The notes beneath the pieces were generated by a model. It did no database searches. It saw nothing but the letters and a program-made list of their open reading frames with translations, and had not been told where the DNA came from. A program made the translations under genes and the position numbers. This document shows, piece by piece, positions 3,301 to 52,347 of a stretch of 64,000 nt of DNA. Position 1 is the stretch's first letter, and each line of letters starts with the position of its first letter. The DNA is from Mesaphorura yosii (taxonomy: Eukaryota; Arthropoda; Collembola; Poduromorpha; Tullbergiidae): the NCBI GenBank assembly GCA_009869945.1, contig WIXG01000056.1, positions 62,001 to 126,000 of the forward strand. Reading direction: 5' to 3'.

Positions 3301-6300
3301 TAAAGCATCTCTTTTCTTCTGAAAAGGGCCGAGTCGAGAATGCAGCCTCCAAACAAATAAATCACTGCATGTCGCATTGCTATATTTGTCGCTGCCACTG
3401 CACTGCACTCGTGGCTCAGGGTTTAACTTTAACGACAACGACAACGGCTCTAAATTAGAAATTAGTCACTTGTCCAGATGTCAAATTAGAATATTTAACG
3501 GTAAACCAAACCCAATAAAGAGAAAGGAAAGAATGTGCATCAATTGAATTTCTTCGTGTAGGCGCAAAAACACAAAACTTGAAGCACGACACGACCTATG
3601 TCATACGCGTCATTTATCACACTTGACAATGGATGCCTTGAATGCATTTTCGAATAAATCAATCACAATCGCTCGAACTGATAGCAAGTCTGCTTGATCG
3701 AGAGCGGGGCGGCAGGATGTGATATGACGAATGAATGGAGAATTAGATGTGATTACGTTCATCGTTCATTGCAAAATGACTCATTAGAGCGAATGAGAAT
3801 TATGCGAAGGGTGCGGTGCAGTGGTGGAAGTTGACAATGCGCAATTCGAGTCAAGTGCATTATTTGGTATTTGGTTTTAGCGACCCAGCCATAAGTCAGG
3901 TGACGAATCTTGTCTCTGTCCTACGTTTAGGTGGTAATTACGTGGAAATAAAGGTCAGGATTCGAATGACTTCAAAAATGCATTAGCATGAGCATTATTG
4001 CATTAGCATAAGATGTCATTTGCAATATTCCTTTTATGTCATGTCTCGTGCCTGTCGCCCTTTGGTTTTGAACTTGTAATTGTTGCAATTGCGATTGTCC
4101 AGTGGGTAACTCCAAAGTCAAAGTGCGAATTATGGCGATGGACTTGAGAATTGCTTATGCGAGTTCACATTAGCAGATGGAAATTTGCAATTCGCAAGAA
4201 TAAGAATGAATCCAAACCAGCTGCTTGTCCAAGTATGAAGTGAATGCAAAGGAAAAATGATGACGACAAATTCAAATCAGTGTTTGTTTAATTCATTGCT
4301 GTGCTTCGTGACTGGATGCTGGTACGCTTGGCTGATTTGCGAATCTACCTTGCCTTGGCTTGAATGTATCCCATTCCTAATTTATTCACCTGACTTGACT
4401 GTTGACTCCCACACTCGCTCACTGCACTGCATACGTCAGGATCAGGATTCGGGTTTGCGACTGCGATGGCTTTGGCTACGTAAGCCTCTTATCTCGGAAA
4501 TGATACGATGATGAATCACCCATCGCATCATTGGCGGCCGGGTACTTGTACTGCTCACCTGATTAACATTATTACCATAAACAAAGCAGAGCGATGCATC
4601 ATCAGAAACTTTGTTCATTCAGTTTCAGTTCATTTATTGAAAAGTACCGTACCCAGTATTCGTTAAGATCTCTGCACTGCACAGCACCATTTTACGGCTA
4701 GTTGAGACAAATCATAGACAAACTAAATTATCGCAAGATTTTCCACGTTGTCAACATCTCGCGCGAGTTTAAGTGCAAAAGCCGCGATCGTGAATTGAAA
4801 TTGTGATTTAAAGTCACTGTTTCGTTTGCTATACAGGCTTCAGCGGAGCCGGCAATTTCGTGGATTGTGCAAAAATTGTTCGTGTTCCTGTTGACAAAAG
4901 GACAGAGTTTGAACTTCTTCGACGAATAAGGTAAGTTTCTTTTCGCTGTTCGTTCGTCTTTGTTTTCTTTACGTCGGCTTGAGGTCTCGGATGACGAACT
5001 TCGAAAATAACTCGACTCACTTTCGACGCACGCAAGTAGGAAGAATAGGACGATGTACTCAGGCCTCAGATGGCTGCCATTGAATTGGAGATAACAAGCA
5101 AAATTAGCACAAGCATGCACAAGTACTTCTGAATCATTTCTGTTCATTAAAACTGAATTGCATTTGAATTGCGAATTTCAAAGGAGTAATTACGTTGTAC
5201 AAGTCGTAACCTTCTTCCACGCCGCCGCTGTGCTGTTGTGATTGCGAGATTCGACAAAAGATTCGATTGTTTTAATTTGAGACGGGCAAAAGACAACGCA
5301 ACGTAGAATTCATGAACTCAAGCAGAGATCACTGATAAGAAGCTTGAAACACGTCATCATCAGCATCTTAGCGTGAGTATCAACATTAACATCAGTTAAT
5401 TGGACCCAATGCCAAACCAGATTGCGTAAATACACGCTGTAAAGTGCGTCTTGAGGAAGGAAACAAAAGAGAATTTTGAACGTCCGTCCAGATTCGATTC
5501 TATTTTTGGACTTCTTCGTTTTGCTGGCGCGTGCATGGAAACTTGCGATGATGATTCACACATTACACTCAGATTCAGGAATACGGAAGGGAAAGTTACA
5601 GAATCAGCGAGCCGGGCGGCTTGACGCTTGAATCTGGGCCAAATTGCAAATTCCGACTTAACTGAACGACAGGGCACGTTGTAAAGTTGTAATGATACTT
5701 TACGACAACGATTATGAGGTTGTGGCTAAGAAGAGATTAAAGTTCATTGTGCCTGGGCCAAAAAATAGGCCAGGCCATCGCTATCACGCTGTGGTTTAAA
5801 TGCTTGACCTGCAACGCAGTGTCGTTCTGTAATTAATCAATCGTGACATAATTTGGTCCGAGCCCAACCGAGAATTGGCCATTGGCATTCACTGCCATTA
5901 GTCATTATTTTTTATTCATTGCCCGTGCAGTTCGCTAGTGTAACTCGTAACAGGTGACAGCATGACTCGTTTGACCCATTTCGAATTCAGTTAGAGTCAT
6001 TTTCATAATTATCACCCTGCATTTGCAATTTTAAGCAAGTTCGCGTGCTTTTATTTTGTGTCTCGATAATTATAATTTGATGCTCGTCCGGACGTGGATG
6101 TGCTCTTGTTTCTGGTTTGATGCTTTGACTTGACAGCTTGACCGACATGTCATACATTGCTTTAAGCCTTATGAATTGTGATGAAGGATATCCGGATGCT
6201 TTAGGTTCAGTTTAACGAATGTATTAAATTCGAAGTGAATGAATCATTCTTTCATTCATGCACGTTCTTTTAATGCGTGCGGGCTTTCCAACCAATTGCG

Positions 6301-28475: not shown

Positions 28476-30381
<1,906 letters not shown>

Positions 30382-46660: not shown

Positions 46661-47348
46661 ATGCTGAATATCAGCAAAATTGCGGAAACGGTCGTCAAAT
46701 CAGCGCGCACAGAGCAAGTTAGCCTTAAGAACAACTTTACGCTGCAAATGGCCAGCTTAACTTTCTCAGTTGCCCTTTCTCGTTACAGGAAATTAAGCTG
46801 GAGAGCCTCTGGGAGGAGAAGACAACCGTGATCATTTTCTTCAGAAGATTTGGCTGTTTTTTTTGCCGTCTCTCCGCGAAGGAGATCTCTCGAATTCAGC
46901 CGATTTTGTCTGCCAACAATGTTCGCCTTGTAGGGGTTGGGTTTGACGAAGATGGAGTGGAGCAGTTCGTACAGGGTAGATATTTCACTGGCGATATTTA
47001 TCTGGATCCACTTAAAGTGACTTACAAAGGCCTTGATTTCAAGCGGCATGGAGTTCTTGGGATGGCGAAGAGAGTTTTGACGAAAACTTTCAAAAAATCG
47101 TATATGAAGGTAGAATTCTATTTCCTGAAACCAGAAACCTTTCAGATCTAAAATTTTGCCTGCAGGTACGCCAAGAAAAAATCGCTTGGAACAGCCAAGG
47201 CGATAAGTTTCAGCAAGGAGGAGTGCTTGTGGTCACGTCAAAGGCACAAGGGTCCCAAGTTCTGTTGGCTTACAAGCAGGACAACCCGGCCGATTATCTT
47301 CCGAATGAGGACATCTTGAACGTGCTGAACCTTCATAAGCATGAATGA
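46661..47348 (+). CDS. PRXL2B-like thioredoxin-fold reductase, copy 1 (Cys form)
   Basis: Exons: 46661-46717, 46789-47109, 47166-47348. The introns are phase 0 and the protein has 186 residues. It belongs to the peroxiredoxin-like 2 (FAM213/SelU) family. The resemblance is closest to PRXL2B, prostamide/prostaglandin F synthase, which reduces prostaglandin H2 or prostamide H2 with a thioredoxin-like motif. The redox motif is FGCFFC (Cys42, Cys45), followed by LVGVGFDEDGVEQF, GDIYLDPLKVTYKGLDF and a QGGVLVV strand. The C terminus retains NEDILNVLNL. Exon 2 is exactly 321 nt, as in the two copies downstream. A poly(A) signal lies at 47446. Substrate is inferred from the family only. Confidence 0.9.
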
Positions 47349-47747
47349 AGCAACAGACGGTCCAGCGTATTTTTTTGCAGTTAAGCATTGCAGTTTTCAA
47401 TTTTTAGGCTTTTGAATGGGCTAGACCTTGATGTCATTATTCAAAAATAAATTAAAACCTCCATACATGTTTGTCGAATTCGTTGTCAAAGTGGAAATTA
47501 GACTAGGAGGGTCAATCTTCAATGACTGAAAATGTTACTACAGAGTTAATTGTTCTTCGTGTCTGATGATAATTATTTCCATCCAATTACGCACCTGCTG
47601 CAGTAATGGCAGAACAAACATTGACATTGTGACCTTGAATGGAATGAAGGTAAAAAGTTGCTCTCATTTTAATCGCTAATGCCACTAGAATATGGAATGG
47701 GTCCAGAGGTTTTAGTTCTTCGTTCAATAAGTCAAAGGGAAGACGGA
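47349..47747. other. Spacer between PRXL2B copies 1 and 2
   Basis: About 400 bp: 3' UTR of copy 1 (AATAAA at 47446) and presumed promoter of copy 2. I noticed no SECIS-like fold here. Confidence 0.5.
47446..47451 (+). terminator. PRXL2B copy 1 poly(A) signal
   Basis: AATAAA about 100 nt after the stop codon. Confidence 0.55.
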
Positions 47748-48475
47748 ATGACTGAAATGGATCCGGTGCTCTGTAAAATCGCTGGAAACGTCATCCGAAA
47801 GGCATCCACAACGGAGGTAAGTAATAAATTAGTAAGCCTGTTCTAGTTCCAGCCAGCAAACTTGAGCAGATTGACCTTGCCCTCTTGCAGGATATCAAAA
47901 TGGAGGCACTTTGGGAGCATCATTCTTGCGTGATCGTCTTCTTCCGTCGTTTCGGATGCGTCTTTTGTCGGCAGTCCGCGAGAGAAATCTGCTCCATTTC
48001 TTCACTGCTGACCGCTCATGGCGTGAAACTTGTGGGCATTGGATTTGACGAGTTTGGAGTTGATGAATTTTTAAAGGAGGGCTACTTTGACGGAGAATTG
48101 TATCTGGACCCACCGAAATCAAATTACAAAGCACTTGGCTTCAGGAGATACGGAATAGCGACAATGTTCGCAAGTTTGCTGAATCGACGGATTCAGGAAA
48201 GCTATTTGAAGGTGAGACATGTCACGTTACGGCAATAAATTGTCTGTCCGTTAGATTACGACAATTTTAAATTTTTTTACATTCAGGTCACCGCGGAGGG
48301 AATGAAAGGCAACCTGCTCTCTGGAGATGCCTTCCAAAATGGCGGAGCACTTGTCGTTTCTTCGAAATCAAGCGGTTGCAAGGTTTTGCTCTCTTTCCGG
48401 CAAGAAAATCCTATCGACTACGTGCCAAACAGCGAAGTGCTTCAGGTTTTGGGAATTCGCGTGACAGAAGTCTAG
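47748..48475 (+). CDS. PRXL2B-like thioredoxin-fold reductase, copy 2 (Cys form)
   Basis: Exons: 47748-47816, 47891-48211 (321 nt), 48287-48475, phase-0 introns. Counting from the second ATG (47757), the protein has 189 residues; the upstream in-frame ATG at 47748 adds three. The motif is FGCVFC (Cys43 and Cys46 in the shorter numbering). Family blocks follow: [64 protein letters not shown] and EVLQVLGI. These are the closest in the cluster to vertebrate PRXL2B. It is expected to be a cytosolic, thiol-dependent reductase of prostaglandin or peroxide-like substrates. It lies head-to-tail between copies 1 and 3, which argues for tandem duplication. A poly(A) signal lies at 48553. Confidence 0.91.
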
Positions 48476-48552: not shown

Positions 48553-48558
48553 AATAAA
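48553..48558 (+). terminator. PRXL2B copy 2 poly(A) signal
   Basis: AATAAA about 80 nt after the stop codon. Confidence 0.55.
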
Positions 48559-48672: not shown

Positions 48673-50600
48673 TTCGCTGTTCACTTTGTTCACAGTTCAC
48701 ACCTTTGGAAATTCGGTTCTAATCTCAGGCAGATCCAGATCACAAGAATTAAGGTCAGAAGCGAAAGTTGAGCTAGGCACTATCAGTATATGCAATGAGC
48801 AATTTCTCCGTGATCTAATTTAGTCCTGCCCGTCTCGCTTGTGTGTGCCTGCTTTCTTTTCCGTACGTCCACTTTAGGAATTTGTGAATGTGAAATCGAT
48901 TAACTCATAAGCTAAAGTATAATGTAGTGTACACTCGCGGACGATAGACTGAGAATGGAACGTGTTTGTTTGCAAATTTCGAGTCTCACGCATTAAGCAT
49001 GCTTTGGTTTTACTTTTTCTCATAATGCCCGGACTTGTAAAGCTTCTTTTTAGCTTTCGCCCAAGTCAAGTTCCAAATTCTTGGCTCCTGGACAGAGTTC
49101 CCAGGTTATATTCATGCTCATATGATTACACCCTCAAACTTTTCGCATGTATGAAACTCTTGACTTGACCAGACACCTTATACAAATCTGGAACTGGAGT
49201 TTGTGTTTCCAGTGCTCGAATGCAAATTCAACAGTTCGTCAGCCCGTGTCCCTCATATTGATTAGGTGTGCCCGTCTTTGTAGTCGTCGGATTGTCCAGT
49301 GCATTGCCCGGTTTGTTCCTTTTGAATGGACAAACGTGCAATTAAAAAGCGAAGTGGGAATCATCGCTCAGTTGTTCAGCAGGAGTGTTTTCGGCTTTCG
49401 CATATAATCTCCAAAGTCCAAACTCAAGCATAAACTCGTTGTTGGCATACACTCCAGCTCGTCCAGAAGACAAAGTGACAGATAAGACACGGTTTGCAAA
49501 GAAAATGATGTCAAATCCAACCTTTTCCATGTTATTCTGCCAAAGTGGTTAAATATTTACGTGCGCAGGACTGTGCACCGTCACCGTCGGTTCAGAGTCG
49601 ATACTTTCAACTCCAATCGTCCTCGCCGTAGAATAAAGCCTCTAGGCTTTTAGCTGAGCAAACAATCTCATTTTTCCATTTTCCATGTAAATTAAGAATA
49701 GACTCAAATTGCACCGTGCATTTACATATCAAAGAAGAATTGACTTGGGTTAATTCGAGTAGTGGACATCGAAAATTCGAAAAGTAATTAAAACATTTCA
49801 TCGGCAATTTGAATTCCTCGTCCTTGAGACTCTTTGTCGATGTGAGTCCAATGGTTCAACATTGTGATGGCTTCATCTTCAACAATTTCGACATTCCAGT
49901 GCCATTTCATCGGGTTCCGGCGACTCGAGGGCGAATAGACTAGCGATGCTCCACATTTGAGCACGCTTCACTCAGTAACACCTGTCGTACAAAGTTCCTG
50001 AAAATAAAGGTATGTTCTTAACTCGGCATGAATTTTTTCATTTGCAGTCGACCATTAGACGTAACGCAACTAGTGAATCTCAAAGCCAAATCTGTCAGTG
50101 GAGATGCGTTCGTGCTTGTCGTCCTTGAAATCACAAAAACTCCAGTTGAAAGTAAAAAAAAAAGCGAGAGTTGAGAGGCAAAGCAATCTCAGTGGGTCGG
50201 TCGGCCGGCTCAGTCGGTCGGTGAGAGATCAGTTGCGCATTTTATTTTTGTTTTTGTTCACGCACGTGTACGTACGGTAGGTAAAAGATTTTATTTGTGC
50301 TTTCGGTGCTTTGAGTGCTTTTGGACCACTATCTAAATGAGGTTTGGAACTGGGACAAGGTAGGCATATCCTTATCCACCTGTTCTATTAATTGTTACGT
50401 AATTTCCACTGACACTGACTTTGACTAGAAGGGAAGGCTTGGTAGTGCATGGTTTTATTAGCAGTTTACTGGAGTTGCATACCAAAGCATGGGGCACTCA
50501 ATCCTGGGCACGCGTGCGCAATTCTGATTAATCTTATCATTGTGCTATAATTAATTGTCCTCGAACTCCAACTGTTTTCTTTTCCCGTAGTTTCACTTGA

Positions 50601-51371
50601 ATGATATTGGTCACCGCGCGTAGGCTTATTACATTACGACGTGCTCAGAACATAGCAATGGAGGCTGCAAAAATCAGTCAAAATATAGTGAAGAAGATTC
50701 CAACAATGGAGGTACGTTCATCCGCTGATCAAATTGGTCTCCTACGAAAGTGACCTGTGCAGAAAGCTCAGATAGCATTGCTTCGATGTTGTAGGCTGTC
50801 AAAATGGAAACATTTTGGGCTGACAACACAGCTGTCATCATCTTCCTCCGCCGATTTGGATGACTATTCTGTCGGCAAGCGGCTATGGAGCTAAGTACTC
50901 TGAAGCCCTTGCTATCCTCTCATGATATTCGTCTCATTGGCATCGGACTTGAAGAACTTGGCGTTGAAGACTTTGTCAAAGGAGAGTATTGGGACGGAGA
51001 ACTTTACGTTGATACCAACAAAGAATCGTTCAAAGCACTTGGATATCGTAGATTTAATATTTGCAGTATTTTGTGCAGTCTTTTCACGAAGAAGGCGAGA
51101 GATGCTATATCGAAGGTAAGGCTCGTCGATGATAATTGCGAACCTAAACACTAAACTCGAGTATTGATTATTTCAGGGAAGAGCAAACAAAGTAAAAGGC
51201 GACATGAAAGGTGACGGACTCCAAAACGGTGGTTTGCTCATTATCAAGAAAGGAGGCTCCGAAGTTTTGCTCTCTTTCAAGCAAGATAATCCAGCCGATC
51301 ACGTTGAGAATACGGAAATACTCAAGGCGCTCAACATTCGTGACCCAGTTACAGTTGCTCCAGTTGATTAG
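50601..51371 (+). CDS. PRXL2B-like selenoprotein (SelU family), copy 3 (Sec form)
   Basis: Exons: 50601-50711 (or from the ATG at 50658), 50795-51115 (321 nt), 51177-51371, phase-0 introns. The frame is interrupted once, by TGA at 50861-50863, in the context RRFG-TGA-LFCRQAA. Copies 1 and 2 have Cys at this position. Read as selenocysteine, the motif is U41-x-x-C44 and the protein has 189 residues from the inner ATG, or 208 from the outer one. All family blocks continue in frame after the TGA: IRLIGIGLEELGVEDFVKG, WDGELYVDTNKESFKALGY, GDGLQNGGLLII and VLLSFKQDNPADHV. There is no other defect. A SECIS-like hairpin lies about 260 nt after the stop. The outer ATG adds an Arg-rich, acid-free segment (MILVTARRLITLRRAQNIA) that could target mitochondria. 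A nonsense-mutated pseudogene is the alternative, but the intact splice sites, frame and SECIS argue against it. Confidence 0.88.
50861..50863 (+). other. In-frame TGA, predicted selenocysteine codon
   Basis: It replaces the first Cys of the C-x-x-C redox motif seen in both neighbouring paralogs. Known SelU-family selenoproteins carry Sec at this same site. Confidence 0.87.
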
Positions 51372-51627
51372 ATTAATTAAGGAAACACAGACTGTTTCCA
51401 CTCGACTCGTGTTCGTGCATAGAATAACGATAACCGTAACCGTAACAAATCGATTCCTTATTGCAATTTAGTACTCAAGAGCCGTGTAATTTTGTAATGT
51501 AATAAGCAAGCCAGAGAGCGAATCGTGTAAAGGCAGCCCGACTTATTATTAATTGCAATTGTGACATTTTCCTTCCCTTCTTTCCTCTATTCTATACCAC
51601 GCTGGTAGGTTGGTTGGTCTTTTCCTG

Positions 51628-51699
51628 GCTTTTAATGATTTTCTTATGGCTAAATTGTTTGTACACATGCAAACGGGCTATTCGAAATGATTACGAAGT
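51628..51699 (+). promoter_or_regulatory. SECIS element (type II form) in the 3' UTR
   Basis: By hand folding, the 5' core ATGA is at 51635-51638 and the 3' core TGAT is at 51688-51691. They give the quartet U.U, G.A, A.G, U.U. Helix II pairs 51640-51643 with 51684-51687, then a 2x2 internal loop, then 51646-51651 with 51676-51681. The unpaired AAA follows at 51652-51654, 13 nt after the core. An extra apical stem, 51657-51661 with 51670-51674 (GTTTG/CAAAC), closes an 8-nt loop, as in type II SECIS. Helix I below the core is short and imperfect. The element lies about 260 nt after the stop and upstream of a poly(A) signal. It would recruit SBP2 and EFSec to recode the UGA. Confidence 0.82.
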
Positions 51700-51860
51700 G
51701 CACCGCATATTCGGAAGGTAAGAAAAGGCTAACCAGCCGGCCAGCGCAGCAGGAAAGGTGAAATGTGTTGGAATGCTGGCTCCTGGCTGACTTTGTTGTG
51801 ACTGTGATCTAACAAAAGTCTTCTATGGTTCTTGTATTGTATTCATATTCATGAAGCAAT

Positions 51861-51866
51861 AATAAA
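51861..51866 (+). terminator. PRXL2B copy 3 poly(A) signal
   Basis: AATAAA about 490 nt after the stop and 160 nt after the SECIS, so the SECIS would be inside the mRNA. Confidence 0.5.
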
Positions 51867-52347
51867 AAAAGAGCATGAATGCGAGCCACGAGCATGTGTG
51901 AACAGTTGACTTGACTTTTATGGTGTCATTTATCAATTTCTCATGTTATCGACTATCGACTTGACTTGTTCAGTGATGTAGTGTTTGTCGGCCCAGTTCC
52001 ATGTTCCAGCCGGCGACGGCGACGACAGGCGTAAACGAGGCAAAATATTTCGCATGCATTGCACACTGGCTCATGTTTCATTTCATTTCATTTTGCAAGT
52101 GAATCTATTGCGAAACGCGAAAACGTCAAACAAGGCTGGGCTGTGCGCATGAATATTTTGCTCTTTAATTTGCACTTTGTTACTTCAGTCAACACAAAGA
52201 TAATAATACACACATAAAGTAAAGTAAGGCAGTTTGGCAGTTTCCGCGTTCAAGTTTCCTAACCAAACAATAACAATGTCTACAATGCTAAGGGTTAAAG
52301 CTCTGTTTACGTTGGCAGTCAGTGCACTTGCAAAAATCGGCACTCGG

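Follow-up and report, generated by a model that had tools for sequence, protein, structure and literature searches.

A probable SelU3-type selenoprotein gene in tandem with two cysteine-containing paralogs

The advantage that selenocysteine (Sec) confers over cysteine in one and the same redox enzyme is a long-standing question. Sec-containing SelU3 proteins are described for several invertebrates, including a SelU3 gene cluster in a sponge, and the Cys-containing SelU3 observed in the available part of this survey all stem from deuterostomes (PMC3473315). In the accessible portion of a second study, all vertebrate Sec-containing SelU proteins are assigned to SelU1 (PMC3316567), and the corresponding portion of a third ascribes 20 selenoproteins to the centipede Strigamia maritima, all of them predicted and accompanied by a SECIS (PMC4244043). 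Here we describe a locus on a 64-kb stretch of DNA (the window), where three tandem genes of the same three-exon phase-0 structure (p1, p2 and p3 on contig C56) combine two Cys forms with a third member that is, as judged from its sequence, very probably a selenoprotein (Table 1). The genome comprises 93 Mb, and its introns and homologs mark it as that of an animal.

Table 1. Features of the locus, in positions of the window, and further genes of the genome with TGA at a Sec site.
Feature	Position	Strand	Description
p1, Cys paralog (FGCFFC)	46661..47348	+	exons 46661-46717, 46789-47109, 47166-47348; own stop TGA
p2, Cys paralog (FGCVFC)	47748..48475	+	exons 47748-47816, 47891-48211, 48287-48475; stop TAG
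p3, proposed selenoprotein SelU3/PRXL2B	50658..51371	+	exons 50658-50711, 50795-51115, 51177-51371; stop TAG
In-frame TGA, proposed Sec codon of p3	50861..50863	+	codon 41 of 189, with the ATG at 50658 as codon 1
TGT, second Cys of the p3 UxxC motif	50870..50872	+	read from the sequence
SECIS-like element	51629..51697	+	AUGAU and UGAU; 10 of 12 positions paired in helix II; AA at a distance of 12 nt from the quartet; ministem at the apex
Possible poly(A) signal, the first AATAAA/ATTAAA past p3	51861..51866	+	490 nt past the stop
SPS2			Sec context ELKG-U-GCKVP; Rfam SECIS_1 34.2 bits
GPx on C426			Sec context NVASK-U-GKT; Rfam SECIS_1 21.8 bits
GPx on C141			Sec context NLASN-U-GRT; own-model SECIS 30.7 bits
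SelS-type gene on C322			ends SGGRQGG-U-G-stop; Rfam SECIS_1 35 bits
SelW-type gene on C211			Sec context GA-U-GYGPRF; Rfam SECIS_1 22.8 bits

The distinct character of p3 is reflected in its motif FG-TGA-LFC, where the TGA occupies the first Cys of the CxxC that is kept in p1 and p2, with this UxxC/CxxC motif located at the head of the domain. If the TGA is entered as Cys, p3 matches the Pfam family PF13911 (AhpC-TSA_2, cut-off 27) with 71.6 bits over residues 50-162, and p2 and p1 score 66.7 and 59.6 bits. Both introns of p3 start with GT, end with AG, are in phase 0 and reside at the positions of the p1 and p2 introns. The gene contains neither a second internal stop nor a frameshift, which confirms the original prediction in its claim that the TGA is the only lesion, situated at the redox Cys with frame, splice sites and conserved blocks intact on both sides. 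Of the range proposed for the gene at that stage (50601-51371), the end is retained and the start is revised, as the segment begins at an upstream in-frame ATG and similarity to the paralogs sets in at the ATG at 50658. This upstream ATG, 57 bases ahead of the assigned start (50601-50657), would if used add an Arg-rich and acid-free N-terminus of 19 residues, possibly a targeting signal. Elsewhere in the genome, five further matches to PF13911 were found, with no p3-like CxxC in the stretches that were read.

The single base that separates a Cys codon from TGA would be in line with a recently broken paralog that is on its way to becoming a pseudogene. We consider this very unlikely in light of the 189 codons of p3 without further lesion and of the constraint that is not lost past the TGA. 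The fraction of amino acids identical to p2 amounts to 18 of 40 before and 66 of 143 after the TGA, with corresponding values for p1 of 18 of 40 and 57 of 142, and for the comparison of p2 with p1 of 21 of 41 and 69 of 144 on either side of the site. The similarity of dN in the comparisons involving p3 (0.43-0.53) to that between p2 and p1 (0.44-0.48) thus indicates that constraint is not relaxed past the TGA, with dS being saturated (infinite) in four of the six pairwise before/after comparisons of the three genes.

The 3' region of p3 harbors a SECIS-like element between the TAG stop and the first potential poly(A) hexamer, whose larger distance from the stop, compared to no more than about 100 nt for the first AATAAA/ATTAAA in p1 and in p2, leaves space for such an element. 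The two mismatches in the 12-nt strand of its helix II are adjacent to each other. The region 51372-51890 folds with a z-score of -5.8, and none of 100 shuffles was equally good. A home-made SECIS descriptor, run on both strands of the window, returned six candidates, among which the p3 element has the best helix II energy and the third-best total score; the thresholds of the descriptor are met by three of four known SECIS of the genome (SPS2, SelS and SelW) and missed by the fourth (C426 GPx). In 4000 dinucleotide shuffles of the p3 3'UTR, 28 contained any candidate, 11 reached the total score of p3 and four its helix II energy. With a relaxed descriptor, the p3 3' region yields this element only, the 400 nt on the 3' side of p1 (47348-47748) contain no SECIS candidate, and a single candidate near p2 is located at 49323, beyond the poly(A) signal of this gene at 48553. 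We also observed that the p3 element sits on a much longer and very stable stem with a side hairpin (51605-51735, 131 nt, -42.5 kcal/mol), in contrast to a textbook SECIS, where helix I is short.

From the same four SECIS, with p3 left out, we built a covariance model. Searched against 14 sources comprising 127,470 bases, it recovered the unseen SECIS of the C141 GPx at 30.7 bits. In this search, the p3 element is the best match in the window (17.1 bits, E 0.97), followed by a site on the minus strand at 29886-29956 (15.8 bits, E 1.9), and it is weak compared to the 30.7-47.1 bits of the five other SECIS. Rescaled by our own arithmetic to one strand of the 519-nt 3'UTR, its E-value corresponds to about 0.002, and with filters turned off in a search of 3001 bases it again ranks first (E 0.023), with the runner-up at 7.5 bits. 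Rfam SECIS_1 gave no match at the element even with the search space set to 529 bases, and this weakness is a feature that would fit a decaying gene. Raw MAFFT alignments of SECIS (A1-A3) were unusable, and RNAalifold found no pairs in A3.

The machinery for Sec insertion is largely reflected in the genome. Of four matches in a search for tRNA-Sec, a single one, located on C32, exceeds the cut-off of 47 (74.6 bits), in a procedure where all 14 prokaryotic controls gave some match and five of them passed the cut-off; ARAGORN classifies this top match as tRNA-Sec with anticodon TCA and the second-ranking one as tRNA-Ser. SepSecS is represented by five exon matches above the cut-off on C190, with matches also in three of 14 controls. 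The eEFSec domain PF21208 was detected on C108 (45.5 bits, cut-off 27) and in none of the 14 controls, which carries little weight since these are prokaryotes. For SPS2, none of the three exon matches on C589 (103, 30.4 and 25.2 bits) reaches the cut-off of 125 set for the complete protein, which is to be expected for a gene that is cut by introns. SBP2 was not identified among the seven matches to the L7Ae domain (PF01248), which we take to be other proteins of the L7Ae family. The components named in the original prediction are thus present in the case of tRNA-Sec, SepSecS, the eEFSec domain and SPS2, with SBP2 as the exception, and the genome is not one devoid of Sec machinery, a finding that would have spoken against a selenoprotein.

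Besides p3, five genes contain a TGA at a classic Sec site, with codons verified and each accompanied by a SECIS match (Table 1); the names SelS-type and SelW-type reflect our reading of the sequence letters. The Rfam gathering score of 35 is reached by one of the four SECIS_1 matches (SPS2, C426 GPx, SelS and SelW). A genome-wide search with the Rfam model, in which four of 14 controls matched and none above the cut-off, returned two places only and missed the SPS2 element, which scores 34.2 bits when searched singly, thus illustrating that this search is incomplete. Downstream of the C141 GPx, two SECIS-like elements are arranged in series (L035:3825-3882, 30.7 bits, and 3977-4035, 15.9 bits), the second of which may be a product of chance. 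A further GPx-type gene on C1052 (L034) carries Cys at the active site and its frame, inspected by eye, ends with KDEL, which suggests an ER-resident protein.

The sequence UGA CUA is a leaky stop context. The codon following the TGA of p3 is CTA, and the stop could thus be read through without selenium, either by insertion of another amino acid or with the coexistence of short and long forms. We find this highly improbable, since the stop is placed exactly on the redox Cys in a family with known Sec forms and in a genome with Sec machinery, and since a short form of 40 residues would be devoid of most of the PF13911 domain.

Further support for p3 as a selenoprotein comes from its homologs. 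A search using p3 with Cys at the TGA retrieved 54 proteins, compared to three matches with p2 as query, and those with informative names are mostly called prostamide/PGF synthase. At the column of the TGA, the 54 proteins show 13 Trp, seven Cys, one Ser and one gap, and 32 align only after the site. The Ser (P0043) is an artefact of a spliced-around exon and one Cys (P0050) an artefact of the alignment, which leaves a true Cys in six homologs, as in p1 and p2. Fifteen proteins, such as those of Homarus americanus (P0026) and Ylistrum balloti (P0025), start one or two residues past the site. The closest homolog of p3, P0002, starts eight residues past the site and is thus silent on the Sec column. 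Since Trp appears at a CxxC position with all surroundings conserved, it would most simply reflect a TGA that was translated under a code reading it as Trp, and the Trp residues and truncated starts together point to an old shared TGA. With regard to a conserved TGA in orthologs, the proteins show Trp or a start just past the site in 28 of the 54 homologs and Cys in six. The same pattern argues against p3 being a pseudogene, and a sequencing or assembly error in one base of a Cys gene, conceivable as codon 41 was read from one assembly, is the least credible explanation since both the homolog pattern at the exact column and the SECIS-like element would then be coincidences. A search for homolog DNA in viral and genomic contig collections found no relative. 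COX1 was not found, and enoyl-CoA hydratase (ECHS1), used as a marker of the taxon, gives no more than a hint of a springtail: among the best 120 matches, Orchesella cincta (68%) scores highest of the named entries of normal length, two longer named entries score above it (Callosobruchus maculatus 60%, Tupaia chinensis 54%), unnamed contigs attain 83% and other animals up to 67%. The entries that show Trp in this column (P0003-P0005, P0008-P0013, P0019 and P0052-P0054) are public metagenome-type proteins, and they resemble selenoproteins in whose translation TGA was taken for Trp. Annotation loses such genes, as illustrated by the many homologs stored with Trp at the Sec codon or truncated just after it, and Trp at this column offers a means to mine for missed selenoproteins.

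The relationship between the Sec and Cys forms was investigated in a tree of 40 rows, which includes the three window genes and 37 hand-picked of 57 homologs, with 20 omitted, among them two of the 13 Trp rows. It was calculated by a quick method with SH-aLRT support only, and 17 of its 37 inner branches are open. In this tree, p1 and p2 group with the Cys proteins P0056 and P0057 (support 86; 95 for p1, p2 and P0057), and p3 pairs with P0002 (85) inside a group of seven rows (92), which contains one Trp row (P0003), two Cys rows (P0031 and P0041) and three without the site (P0002, P0014 and P0022). Both groups are part of a set of 16 rows (97). The end branch of p3 (0.067) is the shortest of the three window genes (p1 1.03, p2 0.70), a further property that is difficult to reconcile with a pseudogene. 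Considering only rows that show the site, the tree requires at least six changes between Sec and Cys, such switches thus being frequent in the family. The split between p1/p2 and p3 would predate the one that separates p1/p2 from proteins of other sources (support 86), which argues for an old pair. The view of the cluster as a Cys/Sec exchange within one genome is thus not upheld for a recent event, with p1/p2 and p3 residing on different branches together with proteins of other sources; instead, the two forms are likely, if not proven, to be old paralogs kept side by side.

Collectively, the machinery genes, the five other genes with TGA at a Sec site, the SECIS-like element and the Trp residues or truncated starts of homologs support the proposal of p3 as a likely selenoprotein, and we are confident that it is a working gene, probably of the SelU3 subfamily, in which the UGA of codon 41 specifies Sec, presumably under the direction of the element at 51629-51697. 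We infer that tRNA-Sec would be delivered by eEFSec to the UGA of the p3 mRNA, with the element in the 3'UTR directing insertion. The product would adopt a thioredoxin-like fold with U-L-F-C as its redox motif, where Sec would act as attacking and the downstream Cys as resolving residue. It is possible, though we regard it as rather unlikely, that the tandem embodies a long-lived division of labour at one locus between a Sec enzyme that evolves slowly and Cys paralogs that evolve fast, which would perhaps serve selenium-rich and selenium-poor states. If this were the case, it would provide a natural test of the benefit of Sec over Cys in the same fold. Since Sec and Cys versions adjoin with the same gene structure, this benefit can be tested within one genome.

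The precedent for Sec in the SelU family that the original prediction relied on is well founded, at the expense of its novelty: the available part of the earlier survey already describes Sec in this very subfamily for invertebrates (PMC3473315), and p3 is thus less new than initially rated. Among the open-licence papers retrieved by literature searches, no title or abstract describes a mixed Sec/Cys SelU3 tandem. The SelU1 proteins of fish, birds and others (PMC3316567) belong, as far as the accessible text of that study goes, to a paralogous subfamily of Prx-like-2 proteins, distinct from the probable subfamily of p3, that also includes Sec forms. Sec machinery is also present in Strigamia maritima (PMC4244043), an arthropod outside the insects, and the available portion of that work mentions neither SelU3 nor a cluster of this kind. 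Like the invertebrate SelU3 proteins, p3 probably belongs to the prostamide/PGF synthase-like subfamily and is very probably of the Sec form, and in contrast to the Cys-containing SelU3, which in the accessible part of the survey were all deuterostome (PMC3473315), two Cys forms are here found in tandem with one Sec form in an apparent protostome. The addition made by this locus is thus a modest one, consisting in a tandem where a probable Sec form and two Cys forms of the SelU3 type would have stood side by side for long in a single genome.
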